NCBI GenBank assembly: GCA_003669055.1
Contig: RAYB01000048.1
Span: 1 to 37,470 of the forward strand
From: a bacterium 1XD21-70
Lineage (GTDB): Bacteria; Bacillota; Clostridia; Lachnospirales; Lachnospiraceae
Reading direction: 5' to 3'
DNA length: 37,470 nucleotides
Shown: positions 3,276 through 36,129 of the stretch, piece by piece
Layout: each line of letters begins with the position of its first letter
Numbering within the stretch: position 1 is the first letter of the stretch
Translations under genes and position numbers: made by a program
The notes under the pieces: generated by a model
The model's input: the letters and a program-made list of their open reading frames with translations, nothing else
The model's database searches: none
Told to the model about the DNA's origin: nothing

Positions 3276-3306
3276 AGCGCTATTTAATATAGAAAGAAAA
3301 TTTTTT

Positions 3307-3336
3307 CCGGGCCGGAATAATCAGTTTCCGTCCCGG
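3307..3336 (+). other. GC-rich stem-loop in the gap after the recombinase remnant
   Basis: The sequence at 3307-3336 pairs CCGGG with CCCGG and an inner CGGAA with TTCCG. It stands out in AT-rich surroundings. A weak T-rich stretch (ATATTTTG) follows, so a terminator is possible but not clear. The rest of the gap 3288-3480 shows only an AGGAGG site before the next gene. Confidence 0.35.
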
Positions 3337-3480
3337 ATATTTTGTAGGAATTTTACGATTAGTGTGATACAATCAAATATGCGAGATGGTATGTAAAGTG
3401 GAAATTGATAAGATAAAAAGCGGATTAAAATCAGGAATATTGGCAGTTTATTTTAGAACAATCAAAAGGAGGAGAATAGC

Positions 3481-3840
3481 GTGAAATTAGTATTTGAGGG
3501 AAACGGTTCATTTTTTCTTCCACCGAATCAATTATCTGCTTTTGAACATGGTGGAAAGAAACTGCATTGCAATGTTGATCTGTTAATAGAAGATTATAAG
3601 GGGAAGGAGGCAGAGTGGGTAAATGTCAGTGAAATATTCAATCCAGATAGTACAGTTAATTCTGAATATGCAATGAAAACAGATGTTAGCAGACCTATTA
3701 TTGTGGTTCGATTCGATGACGGAACCTATGAAACTTTAGATGGGAATCACAGATTGTTTAGAGCGGCACATGAAGGGAAATCCCAAATAAAAGCACATAT
3801 CTTGAATGAGTCAGAACTGAATAAATATATTATGGATTAA
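3481..3840 (+). CDS. Small ParB/sulfiredoxin-fold protein, function unknown
   Basis: The 119-residue frame uses GTG as start, with a strong AAGGAGGAG site 8 bases upstream. Its C-terminal half contains VVRFDDGTYETLDGNHRLFR followed by AAHEGKSQIKAHIL. The core DGNHRLFRA resembles the conserved DGxHRxxAA box of ParB-like nuclease/sulfiredoxin-fold proteins, while the N-terminal helix-turn-helix and dimer domains of true ParB are missing. No parA-like partner is nearby, so chromosome or plasmid partition is unlikely. It is a stand-alone gene ended by a clear terminator at 3852. Low GC and its position in the mobile patch suggest horizontal acquisition. The fold call is moderate; no function is proposed. 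Confidence 0.6.
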   Translation: MKLVFEGNGSFFLPPNQLSAFEHGGKKLHCNVDLLIEDYKGKEAEWVNVSEIFNPDSTVNSEYAMKTDVSRPIIVVRFDDGTYETLDGNHRLFRAAHEGKSQIKAHILNESELNKYIMD

Positions 3841-20868: not shown

Positions 20869-20953
20869 CGCTGGTGCCTCCTTCCGGGGTGGTGGGGTGA
20901 TGCAAGGTACGTGTCTGTGTGGGCGGATTTCCAGAATTTGGATGAGAGAAAAG

Positions 20954-21130
20954 CGTGTGATTACTTGGGGAAGATTATAACACATATCGTGTGAATGTGC
21001 AAGAAATGTGTGTAATTCGTGCGGATAATTTGTGTATTGGTACACACATGGATGGGCAGTTCGGATTGTGCAAAAGAATTGCAACAAAAATTGGATAAAA
21101 TAGATAAACACAAATAGAAAACGTGTGATT
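20954..21130. promoter_or_regulatory. Repeated CGTGTGAWT motifs between the regulator and PTS operon
   Basis: CGTGTGAWT occurs at 20954-20962, 20988-20996 and 21122-21130. A related palindrome TGTGTA-TTGG-TACACA lies at 21031-21046, and CACATATCGTGTG at 20981-20993 is also symmetric. They lie between the regulator start (20868) and the PTS start (21203), where operator sites are expected. This 334-bp gap holds no gene. Confidence 0.55.
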
Positions 21131-21142
21131 TTTAGGCTAAAT

Positions 21143-21171
21143 TTTACAAGATATGGTTTTTGCATTATCAT
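21143..21171 (+). promoter_or_regulatory. Promoter of the PTS operon
   Basis: TTTACA (21143-21148), a 17-base spacer and TATCAT (21166-21171) lead to a start codon at 21203. No sigma-54 -24/-12 element with correct spacing was found here. Confidence 0.6.
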
Positions 21172-21202
21172 AGGTGCATAACAAATGTTTGAAGGAGGAG
21201 AT

Positions 21203-21601
21203 ATGAGTAAGATACTTCTTTTAAGCCATGGGAATCTGGCCAGGGAGGTGTGGGCGACATCCAAGATGGTTTTGGGTGTGGTGCCGGGAGTAGAATACCT
21301 GACCCTCCCATCCGGAACGGATCTCACGCAGTATGAGGCTGATATCCGCCGCAAAGTAGAAGAGGCAGAGGACGGGATCCTGATCCTGACGGATATTTTT
21401 GGCGGAACCCCCTTTATAACTGCTTCCAGGATTTATGCATCCCTAGAGGACAAGGGTAAGATGGAGATCGTCACGGGAATGAACCTGGCCATGGTTCTCC
21501 AGGTGTTTAACTTTGTGGGGGGCGTGCCGGTGGGGGAACTGAAATCGATCGCCGTGGCGGCCGGCGTGGAGGGGATCGTGGATCTTAAGGAACGTGTGTG
21601 A
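21203..21601 (+). CDS. PTS mannose-class EIIA component
   Basis: Started at 21203 behind GAAGGAGGAG, giving 132 residues. MSKILLLSHGNLAREVW holds the phosphorylated His9 in the SHG box of EIIA-Man proteins, and LILTDIFGGTPFITASRIY is the second family motif. The protein accepts phosphate from HPr and passes it to the EIIB encoded next. Cytoplasmic. It is the first gene of a compact run of six genes on the same strand; the next upstream-most EIIB start lies at the 3' end of this gene. Confidence 0.94.
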   Translation: MSKILLLSHGNLAREVWATSKMVLGVVPGVEYLTLPSGTDLTQYEADIRRKVEEAEDGILILTDIFGGTPFITASRIYASLEDKGKMEIVTGMNLAMVLQVFNFVGGVPVGELKSIAVAAGVEGIVDLKERV

Positions 21602-21627
21602 CGGCAGGGGAAAGGATGGTGTGGAAT

Positions 21628-22095
21628 ATGGCAGTAAAAATGATACGGATTGATGACCGCCTAATCCATGGGCAGATTGTGGCAGCCTGGTCGAAGAGTT
21701 TGTCGATCAAGAGGATTTGGATTGTGGATGACGGGGTGGCAAAGGATACCTTCATTACAAATGTGATGAAGATGGTGGCGCCGCCGGATACGGAACTGAC
21801 GATCACCGGCACGGATGAGGTGGGGGCGCTGCTTGCAGAATATGATGGTTCCGATAAAAATACCCTTATTCTTGTGAAGTACCCGAAAGTGGCAAAGCTT
21901 CTCTTTGACAGCGGCGTGGTGCTGCGGGAACTGAACGTGGGGGGGATGGGAGCCAACGCGGAGCGCAAAAAACTGTTTAAGAATATCTCGGCCAGCGAGG
22001 AAGAGCGGAGGACGCTGAACGAACTGAAAAATGCGGGGGTAAAGGTGTATTTCCAGGTGACTCCCCATGAAAAGCAGACCGTATTTGACGGATGA
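21628..22095 (+). CDS. PTS mannose/sorbose-class EIIB component
   Basis: The start at 21628 gives 155 residues beginning MAVKMIRIDDRLIHGQIVAA. H14 in DDRLIHGQ is the phosphorylated residue in this class. The upstream GTG (21598) and ATG (21616) in frame would add ten or four residues; AAAGGATGG spacing favours 21628. The rest (WIVDDGVAKDTFI, RELNVGGMGA) matches the EIIB-Sor fold. It takes phosphate from EIIA and phosphorylates the sugar entering through EIIC/EIID. Substrate class cannot be read from the sequence. Confidence 0.93.
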   Translation: MAVKMIRIDDRLIHGQIVAAWSKSLSIKRIWIVDDGVAKDTFITNVMKMVAPPDTELTITGTDEVGALLAEYDGSDKNTLILVKYPKVAKLLFDSGVVLRELNVGGMGANAERKKLFKNISASEEERRTLNELKNAGVKVYFQVTPHEKQTVFDG

Positions 22096-22110
22096 AGGAG
22101 GGTGTAAAGT

Positions 22111-22863
22111 ATGTTGATGCAGTCGGTTTTAGTTGCTATATGGGCGTGGTTTAACGGTGGGGTGGTATCGGAATACCTGGTTTGGATTGTGCGGGGGGCG
22201 CCTTTGGTCAGCGGCACGGTTACGGGCATCCTGATGGGTGACTGGCGTGCCGGAGCCATGATCGGCGCGACGATCCAGCTTTTATATATGGGGCAGGTGA
22301 CGGTGGGAGGCATCTCTTCCTATGACAAATGCTATGCCGGTGTGATCGCTACTGCGGTTACGATTGCATCCCATCAGACGGCGGAGATCGGGATAACCCT
22401 GGCAGTTGCCCTGGGAACCCTTGGCCTGGTGGCGAGCAATATCCTGATGACGGTGTGTGTGGCGTTTGTACATATGGCAGACCGCTATATAGAGGAGGGG
22501 AAGACGGAGCATTTGTGGATTTATAACTGGCTTTTACCAAATCTTTTGTGTGGGCTTTTATATGGGGTACCTGCGTTCCTGGCAGTTTTTTACGGCGCGG
22601 CTTACCTTGAGTCAGCCATGAACCAGATACCGGCCTTCGTATCCAAGGCCTTGACTACGGCAGGCATGATCCTTCCTGCGCTGGGGATCTCCATGATGTT
22701 CAAAACGGTATTCAGCCCCAAGTTTGCCCCGTTTATCGTGGTGGGGTATCTGTGTGTGGCCTATCTCCATATGGATATTATTGCCTGTGCGCTTCTCGGC
22801 GGTGCCTGTGCAGTGCTTTACTGGACGCTGAACCTGGATAAACTGGCAGAAGGAGGGAATTGA
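22111..22863 (+). CDS. PTS mannose/sorbose-class EIIC component
   Basis: The 250-residue membrane protein has about seven hydrophobic helices and the typical segment GILMGDWRAGAMIGATIQLL followed by GQVTVGGISSYD. Together with EIID it forms the sugar channel. AAGGAGGGTGTAA precedes the ATG, and the stop is one base from the EIID start, indicating coupled expression. Confidence 0.94.
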   Translation: MLMQSVLVAIWAWFNGGVVSEYLVWIVRGAPLVSGTVTGILMGDWRAGAMIGATIQLLYMGQVTVGGISSYDKCYAGVIATAVTIASHQTAEIGITLAVALGTLGLVASNILMTVCVAFVHMADRYIEEGKTEHLWIYNWLLPNLLCGLLYGVPAFLAVFYGAAYLESAMNQIPAFVSKALTTAGMILPALGISMMFKTVFSPKFAPFIVVGYLCVAYLHMDIIACALLGGACAVLYWTLNLDKLAEGGN

Positions 22864-22864
22864 T

Positions 22865-23683
22865 ATGGGTGAAATAAATGATAAAAAATTAACAAAGTCG
22901 GATTTGCTCCGCTGTTTCCTGATCTGGGAGACTACCTCCGAATCATGCTTAAGCTATGAGCGTCTGATGTCCTTGGGCTTCTGCCATGCCATGGCCCCGG
23001 TGATTAACCGGCTTTACAAAGAGAAGGAAGAGCGGGTTGCTGCTTTGAAGCGCCACATGGTATTTTTCAACACGGAAAACAACTGGGGTGCGTTCATCCC
23101 TGGGATCGTCTGCTCCATGGAGGAGGAAAGAGCCAATGGAGGGACTGTCAGCGATGAGATGATCAACAGTGTCAAGATCGGCCTTATGGGGCCGCTGGCG
23201 GGGATTGGCGACACCATCACCCAGGGGCTTTTAAAAACGGTTTTGCTGGCGATCTTTGTGGATATGACATTGAAGGGCAATATCGTGGCTCCGTTCATCT
23301 ATGCCGTCCTTTTGGGCGCCTATATATTGGGGATGGGATATTTTACCTTCTTTTCCGGCTATAGGCTGGGGCAGAATGTGCTGACCAAGATCACGGATCC
23401 TTCCATTATGAGAAAGATTACCAACAGCTTGTCGATCCTTGGCCTGGTGATTGCCGGGGCGATGATGGTCAACAACGTTTCCATTGTTACGCCGCTTGCC
23501 ATCCATGTGGGGGAGACTTCCGTGGTGATCCAGGAACTTCTGGATTCCATTCTCCCCGGCATGCTGAGCGTGATTTTTGTCATGATGTGTTTCGGGCTGA
23601 TGAAGAAAAATGTCAGCGTGTTTAAGATTATGGTTCTTTTGTTTGCGGTTGCGCTTGTGGGGGCATTCTGTGGGATTTTGTGA
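22865..23683 (+). CDS. PTS mannose-class EIID component
   Basis: The 272-residue protein starts with a soluble part (LTKSDLLRCFLIWETTSESC, then GFCHAMAPVINRLY), followed by SVKIGLMGPLAGIGDTITQG, the family hallmark, and several C-terminal membrane helices. EIID exists only in the mannose class of PTS and completes the permease with EIIC. AGAAGGAGGGAATTGAT precedes the ATG. With EIIA, EIIB and EIIC the set is complete in this operon. Confidence 0.94.
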   Translation: MGEINDKKLTKSDLLRCFLIWETTSESCLSYERLMSLGFCHAMAPVINRLYKEKEERVAALKRHMVFFNTENNWGAFIPGIVCSMEEERANGGTVSDEMINSVKIGLMGPLAGIGDTITQGLLKTVLLAIFVDMTLKGNIVAPFIYAVLLGAYILGMGYFTFFSGYRLGQNVLTKITDPSIMRKITNSLSILGLVIAGAMMVNNVSIVTPLAIHVGETSVVIQELLDSILPGMLSVIFVMMCFGLMKKNVSVFKIMVLLFAVALVGAFCGIL

Positions 23684-25355: not shown

Positions 25356-26237
25356 TTATGATTTTCTGAAATCTCTGAAATAGTCTTTCATAAAATCCCG
25401 GAATATAACGGCGGCAGAGGGGAGGTACCCCTCGCTCCGCCAGGAAAGCTGGATATAGCGCTTGCACTGCGGGAAGTGGATAGGGATCAATGCCAGGTTC
25501 TTGGTTTCCATGCCCCGCCAGGTGATGGAGGGAATGAAGGAGATGCCGATGCCGGCATGGATCAGTTCCCGCACGATCTCGGGGCTGTCGCTCTCCAGCA
25601 CCACCGACGGCTCAAACCCGGCGATCTGGCAGTAGGTATCCGTAATCTTGCGGAGGCTTTTGCCTTTGTGGAGGCAGATGAATTTCTCGTGGGCAACTTC
25701 GATTAAGTCCACATAGGGGCGGCTGGCAAGGGGGCTGGAGTCCGGCAGCGCCAGCAGGATATCCTCCGAAAACAGGGTGATGGTGTTGGAGGCGCTGAGC
25801 GGGTAGATCGAGGAGGAGAGCGTCAGGTCGCATTCTTCGGAGGCATCCGGGTTGGGGCTTTCCTGGATGACCTTTAAACGGATGGAGGGGTATTTTTGTT
25901 TAAAGGCCGAGACCATCTGGGGGAGAAGCTTGGAGGCGGCGTACAAGGACAACGAGACCAGCTGATGGGACTGGTCGGAGTAATCGGCAAGTTCCCGTTC
26001 GATATCATGGAGTTCCTGCAGGATCCGGTTGGTGTGGCGGAGCACGATTTCGCCATGGGGGTTTAGGGTGACATTCTTGCCGGAACGGTCGAAAAGGCGG
26101 AATCCCAGGGATTGTTCCAGGCGGGAAATGGTGCGGCTTAGGGAGGGCTGTGCTACCCGCAATTTTTCCGCGGCGAGGGTAAAATGCTGCAGTTCGGCAA
26201 CTTTTTTGAAGTAAGTCAGAGAGTTTAAGTCGATCAT
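25356..26237 (-). CDS. LysR-type transcriptional regulator, probable regulator of the malonate operon
   Basis: The 293-residue protein has the LysR winged helix at about residues 1-60 (LTYFKKVAELQHFTLAAEKL, then VAQPSLSRTISRLEQSLGFRL) and an effector-binding domain from about 88 onward. It is divergent from the malonate decarboxylase genes. In Klebsiella and others a LysR-type protein, MdcR, activates the mdc genes, and the arrangement here suggests the same job with malonate as likely effector (inference). AGGAGGCATCCCC precedes the ATG. The intergenic region holds an AT-rich inverted repeat AATATAT/ATATATT at 26272-26293, suitable as a LysR site next to the operon's -35. Confidence 0.92.
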   Translation of the reverse strand: MIDLNSLTYFKKVAELQHFTLAAEKLRVAQPSLSRTISRLEQSLGFRLFDRSGKNVTLNPHGEIVLRHTNRILQELHDIERELADYSDQSHQLVSLSLYAASKLLPQMVSAFKQKYPSIRLKVIQESPNPDASEECDLTLSSSIYPLSASNTITLFSEDILLALPDSSPLASRPYVDLIEVAHEKFICLHKGKSLRKITDTYCQIAGFEPSVVLESDSPEIVRELIHAGIGISFIPSITWRGMETKNLALIPIHFPQCKRYIQLSWRSEGYLPSAAVIFRDFMKDYFRDFRKS

Positions 26238-26271: not shown

Positions 26272-26293
26272 AATATATGACTTATTATATATT
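26272..26293. promoter_or_regulatory. Candidate LysR operator
   Basis: The inverted repeat AATATAT (26272-26278) / ATATATT (26287-26293) is spaced by 8 bases and overlaps the -35 of the malonate operon promoter. This matches where LysR-type activators bind. Confidence 0.45.
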
Positions 26294-26321
26294 GGACGTT
26301 ATGACGTGTCAAGCTTATAAT
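26292..26321 (+). promoter_or_regulatory. Promoter of the malonate decarboxylase operon
   Basis: TTGGAC (26292-26297), an 18-base spacer and a perfect TATAAT (26316-26321). Transcription from here gives a leader of about 210 bases before the first ATG at 26537. Confidence 0.65.
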
Positions 26322-26536: not shown

Positions 26537-26911
26537 ATGTTAGCAGGACAGGCAATCTATCTTGGGGATGCGGTTGTGATTTCCATCACAGGGATGGCGA
26601 TCGTTATGCTGGAGTTAGCGATCCTGGCCATATTTATCCAGGTGATGTCTAAAATCCTGGCAATGGTTGTGAAGGAGAAAGAAGAGCCCAAGAAAGCACC
26701 GGCTGCAGCGTCGAAGGCAGCACCGGCACCGGCTGCGCCGAAAGCAGCGCCGGCACCAGTACCGGCAGCACCAGCAATGCAGCCGGCGGCTCAGGGAGTT
26801 ATGGGCTCGGAGGAGGACGATGACCTGGCAGTAATCATGGCAGTGGTTCTGGAAGAGTCAGGGCTGCCGATGGATCAGGTGGTGTTCCAGTCGGTTGTGA
26901 GGGTACAGTAG
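26537..26911 (+). CDS. OadG-family subunit of a sodium-pump decarboxylase
   Basis: Started at the ATG at 26537 behind CGGAGGTGATC, giving 124 residues. One membrane helix (about 9-36, with ITGMAIVMLELAILAIFIQV) is followed by a charged stretch, an Ala/Pro-rich linker (about 50-88) and a short acidic C-terminal part. This is the layout of the small gamma/delta subunits (OadG, MmdD) that anchor and assemble Na+-translocating decarboxylases. Here it would tie the soluble decarboxylase to the membrane pump MadB. The Ala/Pro linker resembles that of the biotin carrier next in the operon. Confidence 0.8.
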   Translation: MLAGQAIYLGDAVVISITGMAIVMLELAILAIFIQVMSKILAMVVKEKEEPKKAPAAASKAAPAPAAPKAAPAPVPAAPAMQPAAQGVMGSEEDDDLAVIMAVVLEESGLPMDQVVFQSVVRVQ

Positions 26912-27031
26912 CCCTAAGCCGAATTTTCGGCGCCGTTATGGAGGGAAGAGGGTTCCGGCATAGGGGACCTTGAAAGAGTATAAGCCGCAAGAACAAAAAG
27001 AAAACGAAAATAAAAGGTGGAGGAAATTGAG

Positions 27032-27505
27032 ATGAAGTATATTGTGCGTATGAACCAGAAGGTTTATGAGGTAGATATTGAGAAGGCAGGGGCAATGGGA
27101 CAGGGAATGATGATGAACCCGGGGATGCCCATGATGGCAGCGCAGGCTCCGATGGCTCCTCAGATGCCTCCGATGGCAGCGGCTCCGATGGCAGCACCAA
27201 TGGCAGCCCCGATGCAGGCGGCTCCCGTTCCGATGGCAGCACCGGCTCCGGCAGCAGCGCCCGCTCCGGCGGCAGCACCGGCAGGCGGGGCAGATGTACA
27301 GGTAGAGTGCCCGATGCCCGGCAAGGTTCTTTCTATCGCTGCTTCGGTAGGGCAGAGCGTAAATGCCGGCGACTGCCTTCTGGTGGTGGAAGCCATGAAG
27401 ATGGAAAACGAGATTGTGGCACCTCAGGCAGGTGTGGTAAAGCAGATTTTGGTATCCCAGGGAACTACGGTAGATACGGGGGATGTGCTGGTAGTTTTGA
27501 ACTAA
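27032..27505 (+). CDS. madF: Biotin carboxyl carrier subunit of the malonate decarboxylase
   Basis: Started at the ATG at 27032 after AAAGGTGGAGG, giving 157 residues. An N-terminal strand region (1-20) is followed by a flexible Met/Ala/Pro-rich linker (about 21-85) and a biotinyl domain (88-157). The acceptor is K123 in VVEAMKMENEIVAP, the classic AMKM motif. The carrier takes CO2 from malonyl-ACP via the carboxytransferase subunits and delivers it to the membrane subunit MadB. The linker is unusually rich in methionine compared with the usual Ala/Pro linker. A biotin ligase is needed but is not in the window. The symbol follows Malonomonas rubra nomenclature and rests on context. Confidence 0.85.
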   Translation: MKYIVRMNQKVYEVDIEKAGAMGQGMMMNPGMPMMAAQAPMAPQMPPMAAAPMAAPMAAPMQAAPVPMAAPAPAAAPAPAAAPAGGADVQVECPMPGKVLSIAASVGQSVNAGDCLLVVEAMKMENEIVAPQAGVVKQILVSQGTTVDTGDVLVVLN

Positions 27506-27535
27506 ACGAAGGCTGATTGAAGGAGGAGACTTACT

Positions 27536-28762
27536 ATGAATATTGTTGAAGTATTGATAAACACAATACAAAGCTCCGGATTTGCCGCCATCACCTCCAG
27601 ACAGGCGATCATGCTGATTGTGTCTTTTGTGCTGCTTTACATGGCGATCGTGAAGAAGTTTGAGCCGCTTTTGCTGCTTCCGATCTCTTTTGGGATGATG
27701 TTGGCCAATCTGCCTTTGGCAGGGCTTATGTATGATGCCCAGGAAGCTGCCCATGCCGGTTTAAGCGCAGCAGTGGCAAGCGGTTCCGAGGCGGAGATAC
27801 AGGCAGCCCTCACAGAACTTGCCAATACGCACTGGTATGATTCCGGTGTGCTGAGGATCATTTATATGGGCGTGAAAAGTTCGATATTCCCATGCCTGAT
27901 CTTTATGGCAGTAGGGTCGATGACGGATTTTGGCCCGCTGCTTGCCAATCCCATCAGCTTGCTTTTGGGGGCGGCAGCACAGTTCGGTATCTATGTGGCA
28001 TTTATGATTGCTATTGCGATCGGGATTTTCTCCCCGGAGCAGGCAGCCTCCATCGCCATTATCGGCGGGGCGGACGGCCCGACAGCAATCTTTTTGACCA
28101 GTAAGCTGGCGCCGGAACTGTTAGGGCCGATCGCCGTTGCCGCTTATTCCTACATGGCTCTGATCCCCCTCATCCAGCCGCCGATTATGCGCCTTCTGAC
28201 GACAGAGAAGGAGAGGACGGTAAAGATGAGCCAGCTGCGCCAGGTATCCAAGGCTGAAAAGATTGTGTTCCCGATTGCCTGTACCGTGTTCTGCGTACTG
28301 ATGCTGCCGTCTGTGGCACCTCTTATCGGTATGCTGATGTTGGGTAACCTGTTCCGTGAGAGCGGCGTTACAGATCGCTTAAGCGACACGGCACAGAATG
28401 CACTGAGCAATATTGTCACCATCATGATCGGAACGACAGTTGGCGCTACTGCTAACGGAGAGCAGTTCTTGCAGGTTCAGACCCTGGCTATTGTCGGCCT
28501 TGGCCTTACCGCGTTTGCCTTCTCCACGGCCGGCGGTGTGATGTTAGGGAAACTGATGTATCTGATCACCGGAGGGAAGATCAATCCGCTGATTGGTTCC
28601 GCAGGCGTGTCCGCTGTGCCGATGGCAGCCCGCGTATCCCAGGTAGAGGGAAGGAAAGCCAACCCTACCAACTTCCTGTTGATGCATGCTATGGGGCCGA
28701 ATGTGGCCGGTGTTATTGGTTCCGCCGTAGCAGCAGGGTTTTTGCTGATGTTGTTCCAGTAG
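27536..28762 (+). CDS. madB: Sodium-translocating decarboxylase beta subunit
   Basis: The 408-residue membrane protein belongs to the OadB/GcdB/MmdB/MadB family. It has about nine to eleven hydrophobic helices, and the conserved [15 protein letters not shown] segment carries the Asp that binds Na+ in the family. It also has [19 protein letters not shown] and a C-terminal [19 protein letters not shown]. It decarboxylates carboxybiotin on the carrier and couples this to Na+ export, conserving energy. AAGGAGGAGA precedes the ATG, 30 bases after the carrier gene. The surrounding mad genes identify malonate rather than oxaloacetate or glutaconyl-CoA as the substrate. Confidence 0.94.
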
Positions 28763-28775
28763 GAGGAGGAAACAG

Positions 28776-30443
28776 ATGGAAGGAAACAGAAAAAGATGGG
28801 ATTCGCTGAAACGTGACCGGATGGAGCGGATCCGCGAGGCGATTCCCCTGGTAAAGATGGGGAAGATTGTGGAGGCCTCCAATACGGTGAAATTGCTGGA
28901 GACCGTGATTAAGCCTTACGATAAGGTGACGATCGAGGGAGATAACCAAAAGCAGGCAGATTTTTTGGCAGAATGCCTGTGCAAGGTGGACAAAGAGCAG
29001 GTTCACCATCTACATATGGTTCAGTCGGCAATCTCCCTGCCGAGCCATTTGGATGTATTTGAGAAAAAGATAGCCAGCAAGGTGGATTTTTCCTATGCAG
29101 GCTCCCAGGCTAACCGCCTGGCGCAGTTTGTGAAGGAAGGAAAGATTGAAATGGGTGCCATCCATACCTACCTGGAACTGTTTGGGCGGTATTTTATCGA
29201 CCTGACACCCCGGGTGGCTTTGACTGTAGCCGTTTCCGCAGACAAGGACGGCAACCTTTATACAGGGTTTAATACAGAAGACACCCCGGTGGTGATTGAG
29301 GCTACTAAGTTCAAACAGGGAATCGTCATTGCCCAGGTCAATGAGATCGTGGACCGGGTTCCGCGTGTGGATATCCCCGGGGATTGGGTTGACTTTGTGG
29401 TCCAGGCACCGCGCCCCTTCTATGTGGAGCCCCTGTTTACCAGGGATCCGGCCAACATCACCGATTCCCAGGTGCTGCGTGCCATGATGGTAATCAAGGG
29501 CATCTACGCAGAATATGGGATCCAGAGTCTGAACCATGGCGTCGGCTTCGACACGGCGGCCATTGAACTTTTGCTTCCCACCTATGGGGAGGAGTTGGGG
29601 CTGAAAGGCAAGATATGCAAATACTTCTCGCTGAATCCGCATCCTACATTGATCCCTGCCATCGAGAGCGGGTGGGTGGAATCGATCCACAGCTTTGGCG
29701 GAGAGTCAGGTATGGCGGATTATGTGGCGGCGCGTTCCGATGTGTTTTTTGTAGGGCCGGATGATTCGCTTCGTTCTAACCGTACCTACTGCCAGGCAGC
29801 CGGCCATTACGGGATCGATTTGTTTATCGGCGGCACATTGCAGATTGACAAGTACGGGAACAGCAGCACGGCGACAGCCTCCCGCATCGCAGGCTTTGGC
29901 GGTGCGCCGAACATGGGATGTGATCCCAAAGGGAGACGCCATTCTACAGAGGCCTGGTTAAAATGCGGCCAGGAGGACGGGATCCAACGTTCCCTGATCG
30001 GTGAACTTCCGAGAGGGAGAAGGCTGGTAGTGCAGCTTCAGGAAACCTTCCGGGAGAAAATGGCTCCAGGCTTTGTGGATAAGCTGGATGCCTGGAAGCT
30101 GGCAGAGACCGCAGGCCTTGCCATTCCGCCGGTAATGATCTACGGGGATGACCTGACCCATATCGTGACGGAGGAAGGCATCGCCTATCTTCACAAATGC
30201 GGTTCTTTAGAAGAGCGCATGGCGGCAATCCGCGCCGTGGCGGGTTTTACCGAGGTGGGCCTGGAGGAGAAGCCGGAAGAGACAAAGGAACTTCGGAAAA
30301 AGGGAATTGTAAAGACGCCAGAGGATCTGGGGATCGATATATCCCGCGCAAACCGCAGCCTGCTGGCAGCGAAAAATGTCCGTGACCTGGTAGAGTGGTC
30401 CGGCGGGCTATACCATCCGCCGGCAAAATTCCGCAGTTGGTAG
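28776..30443 (+). CDS. madA: Malonate decarboxylase alpha subunit (acetyl-ACP:malonate ACP transferase)
   Basis: The 555-residue protein matches MadA/MdcA: NRKRWDSLKRDRMERIREAI at the start, KMGKIVEASNTVKLLETVI, VHHLHMVQSAISLPSHLDVF, and the late FGGAPNMGCDPKGRRHSTEA. The family is related to CoA transferases. It exchanges the acetyl group on the ACP prosthetic thiol for malonate, giving malonyl-ACP and acetate, the first step of the cycle. Length agrees with relatives (about 550). AGGAGGAGG lies before the ATG and the gene follows madB by 13 bases. A long hairpin occurs in the gap after it. Confidence 0.95.
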   Translation: MEGNRKRWDSLKRDRMERIREAIPLVKMGKIVEASNTVKLLETVIKPYDKVTIEGDNQKQADFLAECLCKVDKEQVHHLHMVQSAISLPSHLDVFEKKIASKVDFSYAGSQANRLAQFVKEGKIEMGAIHTYLELFGRYFIDLTPRVALTVAVSADKDGNLYTGFNTEDTPVVIEATKFKQGIVIAQVNEIVDRVPRVDIPGDWVDFVVQAPRPFYVEPLFTRDPANITDSQVLRAMMVIKGIYAEYGIQSLNHGVGFDTAAIELLLPTYGEELGLKGKICKYFSLNPHPTLIPAIESGWVESIHSFGGESGMADYVAARSDVFFVGPDDSLRSNRTYCQAAGHYGIDLFIGGTLQIDKYGNSSTATASRIAGFGGAPNMGCDPKGRRHSTEAWLKCGQEDGIQRSLIGELPRGRRLVVQLQETFREKMAPGFVDKLDAWKLAETAGLAIPPVMIYGDDLTHIVTEEGIAYLHKCGSLEERMAAIRAVAGFTEVGLEEKPEETKELRKKGIVKTPEDLGIDISRANRSLLAAKNVRDLVEWSGGLYHPPAKFRSW

Positions 30444-30468
30444 AAAGACTATCCTAGAGAGATGTGCC

Positions 30469-30530
30469 AGACAAACCGGGGCGAAACGCCATGAGGAAAG
30501 CTTTATGGCGTTCCCGTTTGTCTTTATTTA
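30469..30530 (+). terminator. Long hairpin in the gap between madA and the ACP gene
   Basis: AGACAAAC and GTTTGTCT close the base, with a GGG/CCC step and an inner perfect AACGCCAT/ATGGCGTT pair, then TTATTTA. It occupies a 180-base gap inside an otherwise tight operon. It may be an attenuating terminator or an mRNA-processing site. A weak promoter-like pair (TTGGCA at 30559, GATAAT at 30584, 19-base spacer) lies just after. Confidence 0.55.
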
Positions 30531-30622
30531 AAAATGAGGCTGGGAAAATATAAACCTCTTGGCATATCCTTATGAAAACAGCAGATAATACAGATGCATA
30601 AAATCGGGAGAGGAGAAAAGCC

Positions 30623-30952
30623 ATGGCATTACAGGAATTGAAATTCTCATTTAAGCCGGAAAAAAATTATATATCCTTTGCCCCGGAATGGTTCCACAGC
30701 GGGGTGGTTGGTTCCGGTGATATGGAAGTTTTGATGGAACATAAGAAGCAGGACGGAAAGGTGACGGTAAAGGTGGTAACGCCGGTGACCGGCTTTGACC
30801 AGGTATGGGAAAAAGTGCTGGCAAAATTTGTGGCAGAGACAAAGATTGGAAATCTCCATATGGAGATCAACGATAATAATGCGACACCGTTTATAGTCCA
30901 TATGCGGTTAAAGCAGGCATTATTTGAGGCGAAAGGAGACGTGGAATCGTGA
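30623..30952 (+). CDS. madE: Malonate decarboxylase acyl carrier protein (delta subunit)
   Basis: The 109-residue protein matches the MdcC/MadE ACP: GVVGSGDMEVLMEH includes the likely attachment serine S31, and VVTPVTGFDQVWEKVLAKF and NATPFIVHMRLKQALFEAK are family segments. The carrier bears a 2'-(5''-phosphoribosyl)-3'-dephospho-CoA group, as in citrate lyase, not the usual phosphopantetheine. The thiol carries acetyl or malonyl groups. GGAGAGGAGAA precedes the ATG. Its stop overlaps the GTG start of the next gene (GTGA), giving coupled translation. Confidence 0.9.
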   Translation: MALQELKFSFKPEKNYISFAPEWFHSGVVGSGDMEVLMEHKKQDGKVTVKVVTPVTGFDQVWEKVLAKFVAETKIGNLHMEINDNNATPFIVHMRLKQALFEAKGDVES

Positions 30953-31908
30953 GAAAATGGGAGGAGATGCAGGAGAGAAGCTTTTATGAATCCACGGCCA
31001 GAGAACGGGCGGTAAACCTGGTTGATAAGGGTACCTTCACGGAACTTTTGGCTCCCATCGATAAGAAGACCAGCCCCCATTTGCCAATATTGGGCGAGGC
31101 GGTTTCTTTTGATGACGGCGTTGTGACCGGCGTGGGGAAAATCGGAAATCGCCCGGTGTTCGTGATTTCCCAGGAAGGACGCTTTATCGGCGGGGCTGTG
31201 GGAGAGGTCCATGGAGCCAAGATGGTAGCGACGTTCCGCCTTGCGCAGCAGAGTTACGAGAAAATCAAGGCGAAATACCCCAATGATTATGAGAGCCGCG
31301 TGCCGGCGGTGGTGATTTCCTTTGAGACAGGCGGAGTGCGCCTCCACGAAGCAAATGCAGGGCTTTTGGCTCATGCAGAGGTCATGGAGCAGATCCAGCA
31401 CTGCCGCGGTAAGATCCCGGTGATCGGCCTGGTAGGCAGCAAGGTCGGCTGTTTCGGCGGCATGGGCTTTGTGGTGGTAGCGACCGATATGGTGATTATG
31501 AGCGACCGGGGGAGGATCGGGCTTACCGGCCCGGAGGTTATTGAGGAAGCGATGGGCAAGAAGGAGTTTGATGCGTCGGATAAGAGCCTGATCTACCGGA
31601 TTACCGGCGGGAAGCATAAATATATTATGCGCGATGCAGCTTATCTGGTGCAGGATACCATCGGTGCATTCCACAAGCAGGTAGCCGAAGCGCTGAAAAT
31701 GTCCTATGACGAGGTTCAGAGCCATCGTTGCATCGGCAGCCTAAAGCTGGTGGAAGAACAGCTGGAACTGGTGAAGATAGCTGCGGAGAATAATTTTAAG
31801 GATGCGACGGATGTGTGGGCCTATTTTGGGAACAAGAAGAGCGACCAGATCCAGGATCAGTTCTATGATGAGTTTATCCGCGAAGCAAAAAGAAGGCCAA
31901 GGAGGTAA
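30949..31908 (+). CDS. madC: Malonate decarboxylase beta subunit (carboxytransferase-like)
   Basis: This 319-residue protein uses a GTG start overlapping the ACP stop. It has the crotonase/acyl-CoA carboxylase fold of MdcD/MadC, with ARERAVNLVDKGTFTELLAP, VGGIGG-like segments such as GKIGNRPVFVISQEGRFIGG, and the hallmark FETGGVRLHEANAGLLAHAE. GSKVGCFGGMGFVVVATD gives an oxyanion-hole type turn. With the gamma subunit it moves the carboxyl group from malonyl-ACP to biotin on the carrier in the Na+-pump version of the enzyme. The gene is followed after five bases by the gamma subunit. Confidence 0.93.
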   Translation: MRKWEEMQERSFYESTARERAVNLVDKGTFTELLAPIDKKTSPHLPILGEAVSFDDGVVTGVGKIGNRPVFVISQEGRFIGGAVGEVHGAKMVATFRLAQQSYEKIKAKYPNDYESRVPAVVISFETGGVRLHEANAGLLAHAEVMEQIQHCRGKIPVIGLVGSKVGCFGGMGFVVVATDMVIMSDRGRIGLTGPEVIEEAMGKKEFDASDKSLIYRITGGKHKYIMRDAAYLVQDTIGAFHKQVAEALKMSYDEVQSHRCIGSLKLVEEQLELVKIAAENNFKDATDVWAYFGNKKSDQIQDQFYDEFIREAKRRPRR

Positions 31909-31913
31909 GGAAT

Positions 31914-32786
31914 ATGGGGATGACAATGCTGGGAAAAGGCAGAAAAGCCATATCCATGATTTTAGACGAAGGGTCGTTTGTGGAGGGGAAGATTGACGGG
32001 TATACATTGCCGGATATTGGCCCGGGGGCGGTGATCGGAACCGGCTCTTTAAAAGGGCGCAAGGTAACGGTGATTGCCAATGACGCCATGGTGAGGAATC
32101 CCCGGTTTCCGGTTGTGTACTCCGGTGTCATCGGCATGGAGGAAGCCTATAAGATGGCGACCACCGTATATAAGATGATTGAACTGGATAAAAATAAACC
32201 CCAGGGGGAAAAACGGCCGCTGGTGCTGATTGTAGACACCCCCGGAAACGGTCCTGGTAAGGTGGAGGAACTTTTCGGCATGAATAAGGCTACCGGTGCG
32301 TACCAGCTGTCCCTGGCAGAGGCCAGGCAGCACGGGCATCCGATTGTGGCAATGATTATCGGGAGGGCGATCAGCGGGGCATTCCTATGCCATGGGCTGC
32401 AGGCTGACCACATCCTTTCCCTGTCTGAGGAATTCCAGACCATGATCCACGTTATGCCGCTGGCAGGGATATCCCGTATCACCAAGAGAGATATTGAATC
32501 CCTGACCGAACTGTCAAAGACCAACCCGGTGTTTGCATCAGGAGCCGGATTTTTCTACAAGCTGGGCGGCCTGGAGGAACTGGTACATAATGTGGACGAT
32601 ATGAAGGATACCATTGACCGTCATATCACGGAAGTTTATAAGTGCAACGCAGAGGGAAATTCGGAAAAATGCGGACCCTGGGGACGGGGCATATTAGGGA
32701 AAGAAAGAGGCGGGAGAGAGACCCGTGACGAAGTTATCCGCATGATGTATGACGAGTTTGCCAAGGTGGAGGCTCAGTATATCTGA
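31914..32786 (+). CDS. madD: Malonate decarboxylase gamma subunit (carboxytransferase-like)
   Basis: The 290-residue protein is the partner of MadC (MdcE/MadD type), with GYTLPDIGPGAVIGTGSLKG, LVLIVDTPGNGPGKVEELFG, AMIIGRAISGAFLCHGLQAD and VMPLAGISRITKRDIESL. The last segments form the second half of the carboxyl-transfer site. CAAGGAGGTAAGGAAT precedes the ATG. The C-terminus carries a charged extension (GREKGGRET region) before the final helix. It ends 91 bases before the ligase-like gene; a 10-bp GC hairpin at 32817-32844 lies in this gap. Confidence 0.93.
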   Translation: MGMTMLGKGRKAISMILDEGSFVEGKIDGYTLPDIGPGAVIGTGSLKGRKVTVIANDAMVRNPRFPVVYSGVIGMEEAYKMATTVYKMIELDKNKPQGEKRPLVLIVDTPGNGPGKVEELFGMNKATGAYQLSLAEARQHGHPIVAMIIGRAISGAFLCHGLQADHILSLSEEFQTMIHVMPLAGISRITKRDIESLTELSKTNPVFASGAGFFYKLGGLEELVHNVDDMKDTIDRHITEVYKCNAEGNSEKCGPWGRGILGKERGGRETRDEVIRMMYDEFAKVEAQYI

Positions 32787-32816
32787 CGGCAGGGAATGCC
32801 GGTGCAAAAGAACCTG

Positions 32817-32844
32817 CCCTCCCCGGTGATCTTGCCGGGGAGGG
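32817..32844 (+). other. GC hairpin between madD and madH
   Basis: CCCTCCCCGG and CCGGGGAGGG form a 10-bp perfect stem with an 8-base loop. No T-run follows, so it more likely stabilises or separates mRNA parts than ends transcription. Confidence 0.45.
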
Positions 32845-32877
32845 GGTAAATTTGACCGCAACAGGAAGGGAGATCGC

Positions 32878-33948
32878 ATGGATAAGGTCAGTGAACTAAG
32901 GACATTCGTGGAAGAGTTTGGGACGGCGCCCACTCTCGGAGAGATGGAGCGGAGAGGACTGAAGGAAAAGGGGATCGACGGCCCCACAGGAGCCCATGTG
33001 ATTGAAGAAATCCATACGCCTTTTAACTTTGCGTATATTACCACTACCACGGGAACCATGGCATTCCAGAACCTAGTCGGGGTCACCCACAATGAGATAG
33101 CAGGCAGGATCGATGCTGCCAGGGAATTGTTTTCCTTGGCAGGCATTGAAAAGGGGTGCCGGATGCTGGTCAGCTACCCTCCTCTTGTCAGCGTGTTTTC
33201 CAAAGCGGCTTTAGAGGATTTGGAGGTAAAGACGGAGTTTCTTATACGTTCAGAGCGCGATGCGTTTATTCTTGCTATGTGTGATAAACAACCTCAGGTT
33301 GTAGCGGGGGAATCCTCGTTCATGAAAAGAGCCATAGAGGACGCTAAGGGAATGGGCGTATTGGGGAATTTCCCTAAAGGGTGCATTTTTTTGGCAGCAG
33401 GGACTCCGCTGGACATGGATTTTCTGGAAGCAGCAAAGGAAGTGGATGGAAAAGTCCATGACCTTTATGGATGCCAGGAGTTTGGCTTTTTGGCTTTAGA
33501 TGGGGTGCCGCTCAGGAAGGACCTGATGCTGATCCCCCGCGAGGGGGAGTACCGGGATTTGTTTGTGGGAGGCCTATCCACCGGGGACTGTTTTGCTATT
33601 TCCGAGAAAGGGCATGTGTGCAACCCGGAAGGGAAAATCCTTACGTATTCCCGAAAACGCCATAATACGGAGTGTGAAACCATATTAAGGAAGACCACTG
33701 CCAACGGACTTCCCACGGCACGGCGGCTTGCCAGGACAATCCTTCGGCTAAAGGCCAAGTTTATCTATCTGGACAAAGACCTGGAGTTCGGGGCAGAGGC
33801 TACCCAGCTTCTGATCCGCAATCAGAACGGCGAGGAATGGCTGGTGGAAGGGCCGGAAAAAACCCAGCTGTTTGACGAACTGATGCAGGCGCAGATTGAT
33901 TATCAGTCCAGGGGGAAGGCAGATCCTGTATGGCTGAAGGAGAGGTAA
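32878..33948 (+). CDS. madH: Adenylate-forming protein, probable ACP:acetate ligase
   Basis: The 356-residue protein resembles the adenylate-forming (PaaK-like) branch: TPFNFAYITTTTGTMAFQN near the N-terminus, LVSYPPLVSVFSKAALEDL, and DLYGCQEFGFLALDGVPL, with the YGxxE acid. In Malonomonas rubra MadH acetylates the ACP thiol using acetate and ATP, which primes the decarboxylase. That role fits the place here, after the gamma subunit and before the prosthetic-group transferase. The protein is shorter than a full ANL enzyme of about 430-500 residues. GGAAGGGAGATCGC precedes the ATG. Fold call good, exact substrate inferred from context. Confidence 0.75.
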   Translation: MDKVSELRTFVEEFGTAPTLGEMERRGLKEKGIDGPTGAHVIEEIHTPFNFAYITTTTGTMAFQNLVGVTHNEIAGRIDAARELFSLAGIEKGCRMLVSYPPLVSVFSKAALEDLEVKTEFLIRSERDAFILAMCDKQPQVVAGESSFMKRAIEDAKGMGVLGNFPKGCIFLAAGTPLDMDFLEAAKEVDGKVHDLYGCQEFGFLALDGVPLRKDLMLIPREGEYRDLFVGGLSTGDCFAISEKGHVCNPEGKILTYSRKRHNTECETILRKTTANGLPTARRLARTILRLKAKFIYLDKDLEFGAEATQLLIRNQNGEEWLVEGPEKTQLFDELMQAQIDYQSRGKADPVWLKER

Positions 33949-33967
33949 AAGGTTTCCCCCGGCACAT

Positions 33968-33985
33968 TTGTTAAAAAAATAACAA
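33968..33985. promoter_or_regulatory. Rex-like operator before the mdcG-like gene
   Basis: TTGTTAAAAAAATAACAA fits the Rex consensus TTGTTAA-N4-TTAACAA in 13 of 14 defined positions. It lies five bases before AGGAGG and 17 before the ATG at 34003, in the gap after the ligase gene. Confidence 0.5.
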
Positions 33986-34002
33986 TAATAAGGAGGGCGG
34001 AT

Positions 34003-34698
34003 ATGGATAGGCGGGAGGGGTCTGGCAATAAGTGGAACCGCCATACGCTGATTTGGGTTACACCAGAGGGCAGGCAGTATGCGGCGGAGCATATCGTCTC
34101 CTGGCAGTGGGAGGAGGATACCCCTGAGTCTATGGCCTGGAAACGTCTCCTGGTACAGGACGTAGAGGTGCCTGGCATCATCTGCCGCCAGCCTGAGCAG
34201 GAGGAAGGCTTCTGGCTGGCCGGGTTTTCCCACTGGGAATACCGGAATGGGAGCAGAATGAGGATGCAGGCTTATGTGCCGGAAGAAACGGTATGGAAAA
34301 GCTGTTCTCCTTTTGAATTGTGCCGGGAGGGGGAACGGGAGAGGCTGTGTGAGAAGTATCCGGAATTGAAGCCGGTTTTTGAGGCGGCCGGAGGCTTTGG
34401 TGTGGAAGTGGGGCTTTATGGCTCTACCGCCCTGGAGTGGGTAACAAAGCGTCCTTACCGGAATCAGGGCTCGGATTTTGATCTCTATGTCCGGGCAGGG
34501 CAGGAAGAAGGCCTGCAAGGCTTTGGGCGGGAACTGCAGAGGATGGAAAAGGATCAGGGCGTGTGTTTTGACGTTGAAGCGGAGATAAAAGGTTTTGGCG
34601 TGAAACTCAAGGAATTTCTGGAAAGAAGGAAGACATTTCTTGGAAAAGGCCTCTATGAGGTAAGGCTGTTGGGGGCGGAGGACGTGATAAAAGATTGA
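34003..34698 (+). CDS. mdcG: Malonate decarboxylase holo-ACP synthase, MdcG-like
   Basis: The 231-residue protein begins NRHTLIWVTPEGRQYAAEH and contains VGLYGSTALEWVTKRPYRNQ and GSDFDLYVRA, a nucleotidyltransferase pattern (GS...SDxD) used by MdcG and CitX relatives. These transfer the phosphoribosyl-dephospho-CoA group to the serine of the ACP, here MadE. GCFGVEVG and the C-terminal KKTFLGKGLYEVRLL-like end also fit. AAGGAGGGCGG precedes the ATG. The enzyme making the precursor (CitG/MdcB type) is not in the window. The gene sits inside the operon between the ligase and the transporter, behind a Rex-like site. Confidence 0.82.
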   Translation: MDRREGSGNKWNRHTLIWVTPEGRQYAAEHIVSWQWEEDTPESMAWKRLLVQDVEVPGIICRQPEQEEGFWLAGFSHWEYRNGSRMRMQAYVPEETVWKSCSPFELCREGERERLCEKYPELKPVFEAAGGFGVEVGLYGSTALEWVTKRPYRNQGSDFDLYVRAGQEEGLQGFGRELQRMEKDQGVCFDVEAEIKGFGVKLKEFLERRKTFLGKGLYEVRLLGAEDVIKD

Positions 34699-34707
34699 CT
34701 TTCAGGA

Positions 34708-34775
34708 GAAGGCAATGGGGTTTTAGCAGCTTTATGCCTTCTAATAGGCAGCAATCATAATAATAGGCTGCTGCC
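34708..34775 (+). other. Two tandem stem-loops before madL
   Basis: GAAGGCA (34708-34714) pairs with TGCCTTC (34735-34741), and GGCAGC (34747-34752) with GCTGCC (34770-34775). They lie in a 168-base gap between the mdcG-like gene and madL. Possible mRNA stabilising or attenuating element; no T-run. Confidence 0.45.
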
Positions 34776-34866
34776 AATATGCCGAAAAGGGCAATATAAG
34801 ACCGATTACGGCGATATGGGAAAGCAGCGCAAAATGATATATGTGACGAGATAAGGAGGGCTTTAC

Positions 34867-35247
34867 ATGGAGATTTTCGGATTGGGGATTATTGGAGCGT
34901 GCATGTTTATCGGCTCCTTTGTCGGGCGCCTTCTGGGGGCGGCTCTGGGGCTGGACAGTGACGTGGGCGGTGTAGGCTTTGCCATGGTTTTGATCGTGGT
35001 ACTTTGTGCTTACCTGGAGAAGACAGGGAAAAGCCTGAACAAAAAAACGGAAGGCGGAATCCAGTTTTTAAGTGCGCTTTATATTCCGGTGGTAGTAGCT
35101 ATGTCCATGAACCAGAACGTGTATTCGGCAGTTACGGAAGGGGTTATCCCGATTGTGGCAGGCGTAGTGGCTACGGTTGGTTCGCTGCTGCTGATCCCGG
35201 TGTTATCTAAGCTGGCAAAAGATACGGACCAAAAACAGAACGCATAA
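34867..35247 (+). CDS. madL: Malonate transporter subunit MadL
   Basis: The 126-residue membrane protein has four hydrophobic helices and starts FGLGIIGACMFIGSFVGRLL, ending with a short charged tail. It matches the small subunit of the MadLM malonate carrier, which works with MadM in Na+-coupled malonate import. AAGGAGGGCTTTAC precedes the ATG. madM follows after 15 bases. Confidence 0.9.
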   Translation: MEIFGLGIIGACMFIGSFVGRLLGAALGLDSDVGGVGFAMVLIVVLCAYLEKTGKSLNKKTEGGIQFLSALYIPVVVAMSMNQNVYSAVTEGVIPIVAGVVATVGSLLLIPVLSKLAKDTDQKQNA

Positions 35248-35262
35248 CAGGGGGAAAACACA

Positions 35263-36018
35263 ATGAAAATATTTGTATCAATGGCCACATCCTATGGCCT
35301 GGTAGGCGCTTTTATCCTAGTGGCAATTATCATGTGGGTCAGCTATACCTTTGCCGGGCTCTTGAAACAGAAGAGGATGGGATCTGCCATCGCGATTATG
35401 GTGGCATTGGTGGTTGCATTTATTGGCGGAAAGATTACAGGCGGTGAAAAGGGAATTTCAGATATCGCCATGTTCGGCGGTGTAGGGCTTTTGGGAGGCG
35501 GCATGATGCGTGACTATACCATCGTTTCCACCGCCTATGGAGTGAAGGTTGAGAACCTGAAAAAGGCCGGGCTTGCAGGCACGGTTGCGCTGGTTTTCGG
35601 GATTGTGTTCTCTTTTATAGTCGGTGTGGTAATAGCATGGCTTATGGGCTACCGGGATCCGGCAGAACTGGCCACCATCGGTGCAGGTGTTGAGACCTTT
35701 GTGGTAGGCCCGGTGACAGGTGCGGCTCTGGGAGTCAGTTCGGATGTGATTGCCCTTTCCATTGCTGCCGGTGTGGTGAAATCTGTGGTAGCTATGATCC
35801 TGACCCCTCTTGTAGCGGAAAAACTGAAGATCAACAATCCTACAGGAGCAATGATCTTTGGAGGCCTGATCGGCTCCACCAGCGGAGTTGCCGGCGGGCT
35901 GGCAGCTACCGATGCATCCCTGGTTCCCTACGGAGCCATGGTTGCTACCTTCTACACGGGGCTTGGATGTTTGCTGACACCTACTGTATTAGCGTTGGTA
36001 ACCAATATGATCTTCTAA
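35263..36018 (+). CDS. madM: Malonate transporter subunit MadM
   Basis: The 251-residue integral membrane protein shows about seven or eight helices and family segments MATSYGLVGAFILVAIIMWV, GGGMMRDYTIVSTAYGVKV, FVVGPVTGAALGVSSDVIAL and GGLIGSTSGVAGGLAATDAS. With MadL it forms the malonate carrier. The pair closes the operon, and the long palindrome at 36080 follows. Malonate entry driven by Na+ would use part of the gradient built by MadB, as in Malonomonas. Confidence 0.92.
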   Translation: MKIFVSMATSYGLVGAFILVAIIMWVSYTFAGLLKQKRMGSAIAIMVALVVAFIGGKITGGEKGISDIAMFGGVGLLGGGMMRDYTIVSTAYGVKVENLKKAGLAGTVALVFGIVFSFIVGVVIAWLMGYRDPAELATIGAGVETFVVGPVTGAALGVSSDVIALSIAAGVVKSVVAMILTPLVAEKLKINNPTGAMIFGGLIGSTSGVAGGLAATDASLVPYGAMVATFYTGLGCLLTPTVLALVTNMIF

Positions 36019-36079
36019 TTTAGCCCGGAGGTTGCAGGGGAAGGTTCCCCGGCAATTTCTAAATACAATACTTTCTTCT

Positions 36080-36129
36080 ATACAAATGATTCGAGGGATG
36101 CCATATGGCATCCCTCGGGTTATTTGTAT
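36080..36129. terminator. Perfect 50-bp palindromic hairpin after madM
   Basis: A 26-base perfect palindrome (36092-36117, half site CGAGGGATGCCAT) sits inside outer arms ATACAAAT (36080-36087) and ATTTGTAT (36122-36129). It lies 62 bases after the madM stop. It suits termination or transcript stabilisation, but its symmetry is greater than usual for a terminator, and the T content after the stem is modest. Confidence 0.65.

Follow-up and report, generated by a model that had tools for sequence, protein, structure and literature searches.

A probable malonate-fermentation operon with a Gcd-type sodium pump in a Lachnospiraceae genome

Conservation of energy from a single decarboxylation is a textbook case of minimal metabolism. 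The described systems closest to the locus analyzed here are the malonate decarboxylase (Mad) of Malonomonas rubra, the biotin-independent malonate decarboxylase (Mdc) and the oxaloacetate decarboxylase (OAD). The M. rubra locus (L030 in our set) encodes the MadB pump, a short biotin carrier downstream of MadK, and a HutP-like protein and CitG upstream; no OadG was detected in it. According to PMC5534430, Mdc is defined by MdcH and lacks a biotin carrier or pump, and in OAD the gamma subunit holds the complex together by contacts with alpha and beta, as described in PMC7274780. Here we analyze an eleven-gene operon in a 37,470-nucleotide stretch of DNA (hereinafter, the window) from the Lachnospiraceae bacterium 1XD21-70 (contig RAYB01000048.1, assembly GCA_003669055.1). 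Judging from sequence comparisons, this is probably a malonate-fermentation operon that combines a conserved Mad core with a primary Na+ pump of the glutaconyl-CoA decarboxylase (Gcd) type. Literature searches in an open-licence library showed no title or abstract opening that describes a Gcd-type pump, biotin carboxylase or HutP in a malonate operon, which is a weak absence.

The malonate core and the pump joined to it

The core of the operon is clearly of the M. rubra type, with MadA, acyl carrier protein (ACP), MadC, MadD and MadH of the Mad kind and a MadLM carrier. The genes A-ACP-C-D-H-K and the transporter genes L-M are found in the same order in both loci, and the encoded proteins are 70% (MadA), 52% (ACP), 60% (MadC), 63% (MadD), 50% (MadH), 28% (MadK), 45% (MadL) and 54% (MadM) identical. 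MadA, MadC and MadD cluster with M. rubra-type loci and away from the Mdc-type copies, in agreement with the class assigned to them in the first-pass annotation, which was made from the sequence alone. The operon shares MdcA, ACP, two carboxyltransferase-like subunits and MdcG with Mdc but, unlike Mdc, encodes a biotin carrier, pump genes and MadH, and therefore does not belong to that class. The Mdc-like copy in L067 is farther from the window (62% for A, 38% for ACP, 41% for C and 40% for D), and Pfam and NCBIfam scans limited to the operon proteins detected no match to the MdcH family. A Desulfovibrionaceae locus (L043:912-9237) combines an Mdc-like set of A, CitG, ACP, C and D with a MadH; there is no OAD_beta match in that genome.

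MadH is the only operon protein with no Pfam or NCBIfam match, and searching PDB sequences with a MadH profile also gave nothing. A 50% identical protein is encoded inside the mad cluster of M. rubra DSM 5091. The AlphaFold2 model of the window protein, built from 32 aligned sequences, has a mean pLDDT (predicted local distance difference test) of 84, with residues 32-66 below 50; in a Foldseek search, PaaK1 and PaaK2 rank at the top with an E-value of 3e-7 and a template modeling (TM) score of only ~0.4. The predicted fold thus matches the PaaK-type adenylating ligases, which fits the role that we take MadH to have, namely acetate:ACP ligase.

The pump is a different matter. Unlike the M. rubra locus, the window contains an OadG-like gene, a long biotin carrier and a GcdB-type beta subunit upstream of madA, and neither HutP nor CitG was found there. 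The carriers of the two loci are 39% identical over 64 residues; no short MadF frame is present downstream of madK, between 34699 and 34866, and the window has one carrier only. An ordinary M. rubra-type system, with divergent MadB and MadF and a classical biotin shuttle, would agree with the Mad-type core and with the homology of MadB and OadB. However, the beta subunit scores 487 bits against the general Na+ pump model TIGR01109 (cut-off 191) and only 188 bits against the MadB model TIGR03136 (cut-off 597), to which true MadBs score far higher (781 bits for M. rubra and 634 bits for L017, from the same bacterial family as the window), and it shares 31% identity with M. rubra MadB. With a hidden Markov model (HMM) of OadG built for this work, OadG-like genes were detected, among 83 loci, only in the window, L018, L019 and L020 (and the duplicate L016), and in none of the 58 MadB-type loci. 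Together with the residues discussed next and with the tree, these differences in model score and gene content led us to reject a M. rubra-type pump; an ordinary MadB system appears very unlikely and, as far as sequence class is concerned, already refuted.

The beta subunit matches OadB of OAD (6iva, 6iww) with an E-value of 5e-125 and keeps 12/12 of the OadB positions checked, including the Na+-site residues D203, S382 and N412; with a score above the cut-off and conserved Na+ and biotin residues, it is a member of the TIGR01109 beta-subunit family. Of these positions, Glu40, Asp203, Arg304, Asn311, Ser382, Asn412, Ser419 and the tested Arg258 come from PMC7274780; Tyr229 is reportedly another such position, going by the title of a paper cited there, and Asn373, Gly377 and Arg389 complete the twelve. 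In contrast to OAD, the window operon encodes MadC and MadD instead of the alpha subunit and would reach biotin through ACP. The position of Arg389 (numbered as in StOadB) sorts the window beta with the OadB-type proteins: it is Arg in 45/45 OadB-type rows, the window included, and Lys in 59/59 MadB-type rows. Arg258 is Arg in 44/45 OadB-type rows (Lys in one), whereas Pro or Gly is found in 59/59 MadB-type rows; duplicates account for 8 of the 45 and 1 of the 59 rows. Other positions are less constant. Although essential in OAD, Arg304 is replaced by Gln in 24/37 other OadB-type rows and by Pro in 56/59 MadB-type rows, and no more than 32 of the 59 MadB-type rows keep Asn412. The OadB-type beta of a Nitrospiraceae malonate locus (L060:4491-5633) carries Ala instead of Ser382 of the Na+ site, so that Na+ coupling is doubtful there. 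Because OAD-essential positions vary elsewhere, their presence in the window beta is support for, not proof of, a functional Na+ pump, and the use of these residues as family-wide proof of Na+ coupling was rejected.

Outside malonate loci, the best matches to the beta subunit among 200 genomes of the family are found in three genomes (G019, G063 and G072). In the first of these, locus L140 encodes, in order, an OadG-like protein, carrier, beta, two CoA-transferases, a 593-residue carboxyltransferase, a BadF-type ATPase and two 2-hydroxyglutaryl-CoA dehydratase proteins and, by its neighbours, appears to be a glutaconyl-CoA decarboxylase/hydroxyglutarate cluster. In L142, the cassette is accompanied by genes for a CoA-transferase and a 612-residue carboxyltransferase; L141, a short contig, carries the cassette and frames identified beyond it by their matching size only. 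All three share the OadG-carrier-beta order with the window, and their betas are 65-71% identical to the window protein over the full length; the cassette precedes the CoA-transferase and carboxyltransferase genes in L140 and L142 whereas, in the window, it precedes the malonate genes. The four betas from malonate operons and the three from Gcd-type clusters form a clade with 100/100 support in a tree of 30 OadB-type betas (87/30 in a tree that includes MadB, with 51 of 104 rows), and a single origin of the four malonate-operon betas is not rejected (p-AU 0.339, approximately unbiased test). By gene order and beta clade, the window cassette is of the Gcd type. It is not part of a whole glutaconyl-CoA decarboxylase: there is no GcdA beside the pump, and the genome yielded no GcdA-like gene. 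These relationships point to a pump like that of glutamate fermentation and suggest that it is an exchangeable part. The earlier reading of the operon as a sodium-pumping, biotin-dependent malonate decarboxylase remains the best one, but the pump is of the Gcd type rather than of the M. rubra kind.

Operon layout and genomic setting

All eleven genes are open frames on the plus strand (26537-36018; Table 1), as described in the first-pass annotation, and ten of the eleven have Pfam or NCBIfam support. The beta gene is separated from madA by 13 bases, and the ACP gene overlaps madC by 4 bases. Promoter-like sites are no more frequent than expected by chance (8 in the region compared to a mean of 9.4 in shuffles), and no Rfam family reaches its gathering score within the window. 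Elsewhere in the window are a gene for an IS1595-family transposase (1775-2698) and, at 18415-23683, a DagR-like regulator of the phosphotransferase system (PTS) type on the minus strand, with a score below the cut-off, and a mannose-type PTS IID gene (22865-23683).

Table 1. Features of the operon and its flanks in the window, and of two archaeal loci with a biotin carboxylase
Feature	Coordinates	Strand	Evidence
LysR-family regulator, divergent from operon	25356..26237	-	best NCBIfam match GltC, below cut-off
Overlapping divergent promoter-like sites	26284..26321		TTGACA-17-TATAAT (12/12) towards lysR; TGGACG-17-TATAAT (10/12) towards operon; consensus match only
OadG/GcdD-like small membrane subunit	26537..26911	+	PF04277 (OAD_gamma) 1.3e-10; TIGR01195 just at cut-off; GGAGG shortly upstream
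Biotin carrier, long, GcdC/MmdC-like, not short MadF	27032..27505	+	Biotin_lipoyl 3.3e-22; Met/Ala/Pro-rich linker; EAMKM biotin motif
Carboxybiotin decarboxylase/Na+ pump beta subunit, GcdB type	27536..28762	+	OAD_beta 2.2e-157; TIGR01109; 6iva OadB; tree; residues
MadA/MdcA, acetyl-S-ACP:malonate ACP transferase	28776..30443	+	TIGR01110 949 bits (cut-off 789); mdcA 5.1e-286
MadE acyl carrier protein	30623..30952	+	GSGD motif; TIGR03130 110.5 bits (cut-off 84), 2.7e-32
MadC carboxyltransferase subunit	30949..31908	+	malonate beta model 1.1e-112; identity to M. rubra MadC
MadD carboxyltransferase subunit	31914..32786	+	malonate gamma model 3.6e-86; identity to M. rubra MadD
MadH, probable acetate:HS-ACP ligase, remote PaaK-like adenylate-forming fold	32878..33948	+	identity to M. 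rubra protein; predicted fold
MadK/MdcG-like phosphoribosyl-dephospho-CoA transferase (holo-ACP synthase)	34003..34698	+	PF10620 1e-13, above its own cut-off; TIGR03135 9e-22, below cut-off
MadL malonate transporter subunit	34867..35247	+	TIGR00807 2.4e-34, above cut-off
MadM malonate transporter subunit	35263..36018	+	TIGR00808 311 bits (cut-off 236), 5.5e-93
Two hairpins 3' of madM, possible transcription end	36032-36055; 36080-36129		25-base arms (second hairpin)
L085 carrier, madA, biotin carboxylase	L085:217-3838 (carboxylase 2480-3838)		carboxylase confirmed by Pfam
L092 mad core with biotin carboxylase	L092:4121-7751		carboxylase read from sequence

The genome is a draft of 137 contigs, 96.7% complete and with 3.34% contamination, which would leave room for an assembly chimera or an inactive remnant. 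However, all frames are open, and the operon is syntenic in two further assemblies, L018 and L019, with 87-98% identity for beta, A, ACP, C, D and H, 71-79% for the OadG-like protein, carrier and MdcG-like protein, 88-96% for MadL and MadM, and 90-91% for the LysR-family regulator (44% in the case of the L066 copy); the L018 copy of D is out of frame at its tail. Given this synteny and identity, the operon is not a chance arrangement and hardly an assembly chimera, and either a chimera or a remnant appears extremely improbable.

The operon had been called complete. The eleven-gene run is intact, but no CitG (madG/mdcB) gene was found in the window. Genome-wide, CitG matches only a CitX-CitG fusion that is encoded beside CitC on contig C60. 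CitG was detected in 12/12 tested genomes in which the mad locus shows none (in one of these as fragments, and some of the loci end early); in the L020 genome, it is encoded ~5.5 kb upstream of the operon on the same contig. In the family, CitG is present in 17/150 genomes, including the three that are known to carry MadH. Its presence in all 12 of the tested genomes, compared to this family background, supports, but does not show, CitG supply in trans, and the notion that the system is defective for want of madG was rejected.

The genome encodes a second Na+ pump locus on contig C35 (L009:1518-6922), with an MmdA-like carboxyltransferase, an OadG-like protein, a carrier, OadB and a PycB/5S-like protein. 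Matches to OAD_gamma were found only in this contig and in the window. PF01039 is represented in the genome by the MmdA-like protein, an accAD fusion in a fab operon, MadC and MadD, and PF02436 by a single 5S-type protein encoded in the C35 pump locus. We rejected the idea of an orphan carboxyltransferase, for glutaconyl-CoA or oxaloacetate, that would use the window pump: the third PF01039 locus is the accAD fusion and PF02436 occurs only in the C35 locus. These findings bear on the alternative that the OadG-carrier-beta trio serves another carboxyltransferase and that the malonate core is biotin-free like Mdc. A close relative of the core, L066, has no pump gene in its contig, and MadC and MadD match NCBIfam models named 'biotin-independent', both of which would agree with such an arrangement. 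M. rubra MadC and MadD pass the same models, so that a biotin-independent system by virtue of the model names was rejected; these names, which extend to the M. rubra proteins, are a caveat for annotation. Against this alternative, no unpaired PF01039 or PF02436 carboxyltransferase was found in this 96.7% complete genome, the operon proteins show no MdcH match, and the trio is located beside madA in four loci, one of them with a beta only 79% identical. A pump serving an enzyme other than the malonate core is thus unlikely.

Distribution and evolution of the Mad systems

M. rubra-type systems, treated in the first-pass annotation as an exception among mostly biotin-free ones, turned out to be more widespread. 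When 84,980 species genomes were scanned with a MadH alignment, 96 stretches matched; the best 80 of these, together with the window, constitute 81 distinct loci. These MadH-bearing loci (the best 80 of 96 plus the window) carry at least six phylum labels and include 58 with MadB-type pumps, 8 with OadB-type pumps and 15 with none seen; in 13 of the latter 15, less than 3 kb of sequence is available upstream of madA. When at least 3 kb is available there (65 loci), 56 are MadB-type, 7 OadB-type and 2 show no pump. Within Clostridia, M. rubra-type systems are rare: MadA is present in 2/391 genomes of the class and high-scoring MadH in 3/299 genomes of the family, this genome included in both counts; a fourth MadH match, at 5e-5, is weak and partial.

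The OadG-carrier-beta cassette is located directly before madA in the window, L018, L019 and L020. In a quick tree of concatenated MadA, MadC and MadD sequences (50 rows kept out of 76, with 26 relatives of the retained rows dropped by hand after omission of 6 incomplete loci and 2 duplicates), the window clade falls inside the MadB-type rows, and L060, with its OadB-type beta, is the sister of the MadB-type L067 with a support of 100 in the Shimodaira-Hasegawa-like approximate likelihood ratio test (SH-aLRT). For this tree, a warning was raised about the long branches of the Mdc type and of the L073 group, and the Mdc outgroup from L067 has no D row in the core trees. A careful tree of 31 rows unites 23 MadB-type rows with 3 rows of the window clade in a group with 99/99 support, and 0/200 bootstrap trees place the MadB-type cores on one side. 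L020 retains a HutP-like gene (PF09021) between beta and madA (L020:5457-5969) whose product is 58% identical to the copies in the MadB-type L074 and L080 and about as close to others. HutP-like frames are present in 56/58 MadB-type loci (three at only 38-42 bits; for example, L030:1502-1996 in M. rubra and L017:10498-10935) and in no OadB-type locus besides L020; HutP may act in these loci in antitermination or as a MadB partner. The HutP-like gene kept in L020 fits the replacement, by the cassette, of a madB located upstream of hutP. Such a replacement of the ancestral MadB is favoured, not proven.

Other mad loci carry different components at the corresponding step. In L066, from the same core clade as the window, the 10.5 kb contig shows no pump gene, and lysR fills the mere 1.5 kb that this contig includes upstream of madA. 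MadA of this locus (L066:1566-3383) has ~45 extra N-terminal residues (the Pfam match starts at 53 rather than at 8), which are similar to the head of a biotin carrier: the score was reached by 1/5000 shuffles for the window carrier and by 0/5000 for the L020 and L009 carriers. This carrier-like head is apparently a deletion scar of the carrier body and beta. A separate OadG-carrier-beta-5S locus is present in the same genome. In the Defluviitaleaceae locus L052 (11616-14728), the mad core is followed by genes for a GntP-type permease, a short biotin carrier with an AFKM motif and biotin carboxylase, and no OAD_beta match was found in this draft genome. The Methanofastidiosum archaea (L085 and L092) show the order carrier-madA-biotin carboxylase-ACP-C-D-H-K-CitG (Table 1), and no pump gene was seen nearby; genome-wide, OAD_beta has no match in the draft genome of L085 and one in that of L092, in a locus with an MmdA-like gene.

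Taken as a whole, these loci raise the possibility, which we consider evenly balanced, that the part discharging carboxybiotin is a plug-in module on one conserved core, with the window as the membrane-tethered, re-invented Na+ pump. The candidate modules would be MadB/MadF, the Gcd-type cassette of the window, other OadB-type betas (L060; L073, L078 and L084) and biotin carboxylase (L085, L092 and L052), with only the carrier-like head left in L066. If so, the loci with biotin carboxylase could make malonate from acetate with ATP or, with malonate in great excess, ATP from malonate.

Proposed function of the operon

The identities of the genes, the type of the pump and the conservation of its residues come directly from the sequences analyzed here. 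By analogy with relatives, the activities of these enzymes, joined in one complex, would lead to Na+ export as follows. MadLM would import malonate. MadK would attach the prosthetic group to apo-ACP, with the precursor supplied in trans by the CitG of the CitX-CitG fusion encoded elsewhere in the genome, and MadH would acetylate the ACP thiol with ATP. MadA is then predicted to exchange acetyl for malonyl on ACP, releasing acetate, and MadC-MadD to pass the carboxyl group of malonyl-ACP to the biotin of the long carrier. The carrier and the carboxyltransferase are likely tethered by the OadG-like subunit to the GcdB-type beta, which would decarboxylate carboxybiotin and export Na+.

The same components might operate in reverse, with the Na+ gradient driving the formation of malonyl-ACP or malonate through carboxylation of acetyl-ACP. 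Dimroth and Hilpert reportedly described such a reversal for related Na+ decarboxylases in 1984, judging from the title alone. However, the operon carries the MadLM transporter genes and the genome has its own acc genes, so that we give reverse operation little credence.

Apart from the names of the MadC and MadD models, several points weigh against a malonate-fermentation operon with a Gcd-type pump. The MdcG-like protein scores 77.9 bits against TIGR03135, below the cut-off of 99.7. The window, L018 and L019 are near-copies and thus make up three of the four cassette loci. The sampling of Gcd-type betas covers one bacterial family only, and the 'glutaconyl' assignment comes from neighbouring genes. 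Finally, the AU test on the replacement of the ancestral MadB is not significant (p = 0.104), which is why the swap is called favoured only; a proven direction of the swap was rejected despite the 0% bootstrap.

If malonate and glutaconyl-CoA systems can indeed exchange this module, beta would require no specific fit to the carboxyltransferase, or only one provided via the OadG-like subunit. Altogether, it appears that the operon probably turns malonate breakdown into a sodium gradient in this gut-type Clostridia genome and would, thus, offer gut Clostridia a route to energy from malonate.

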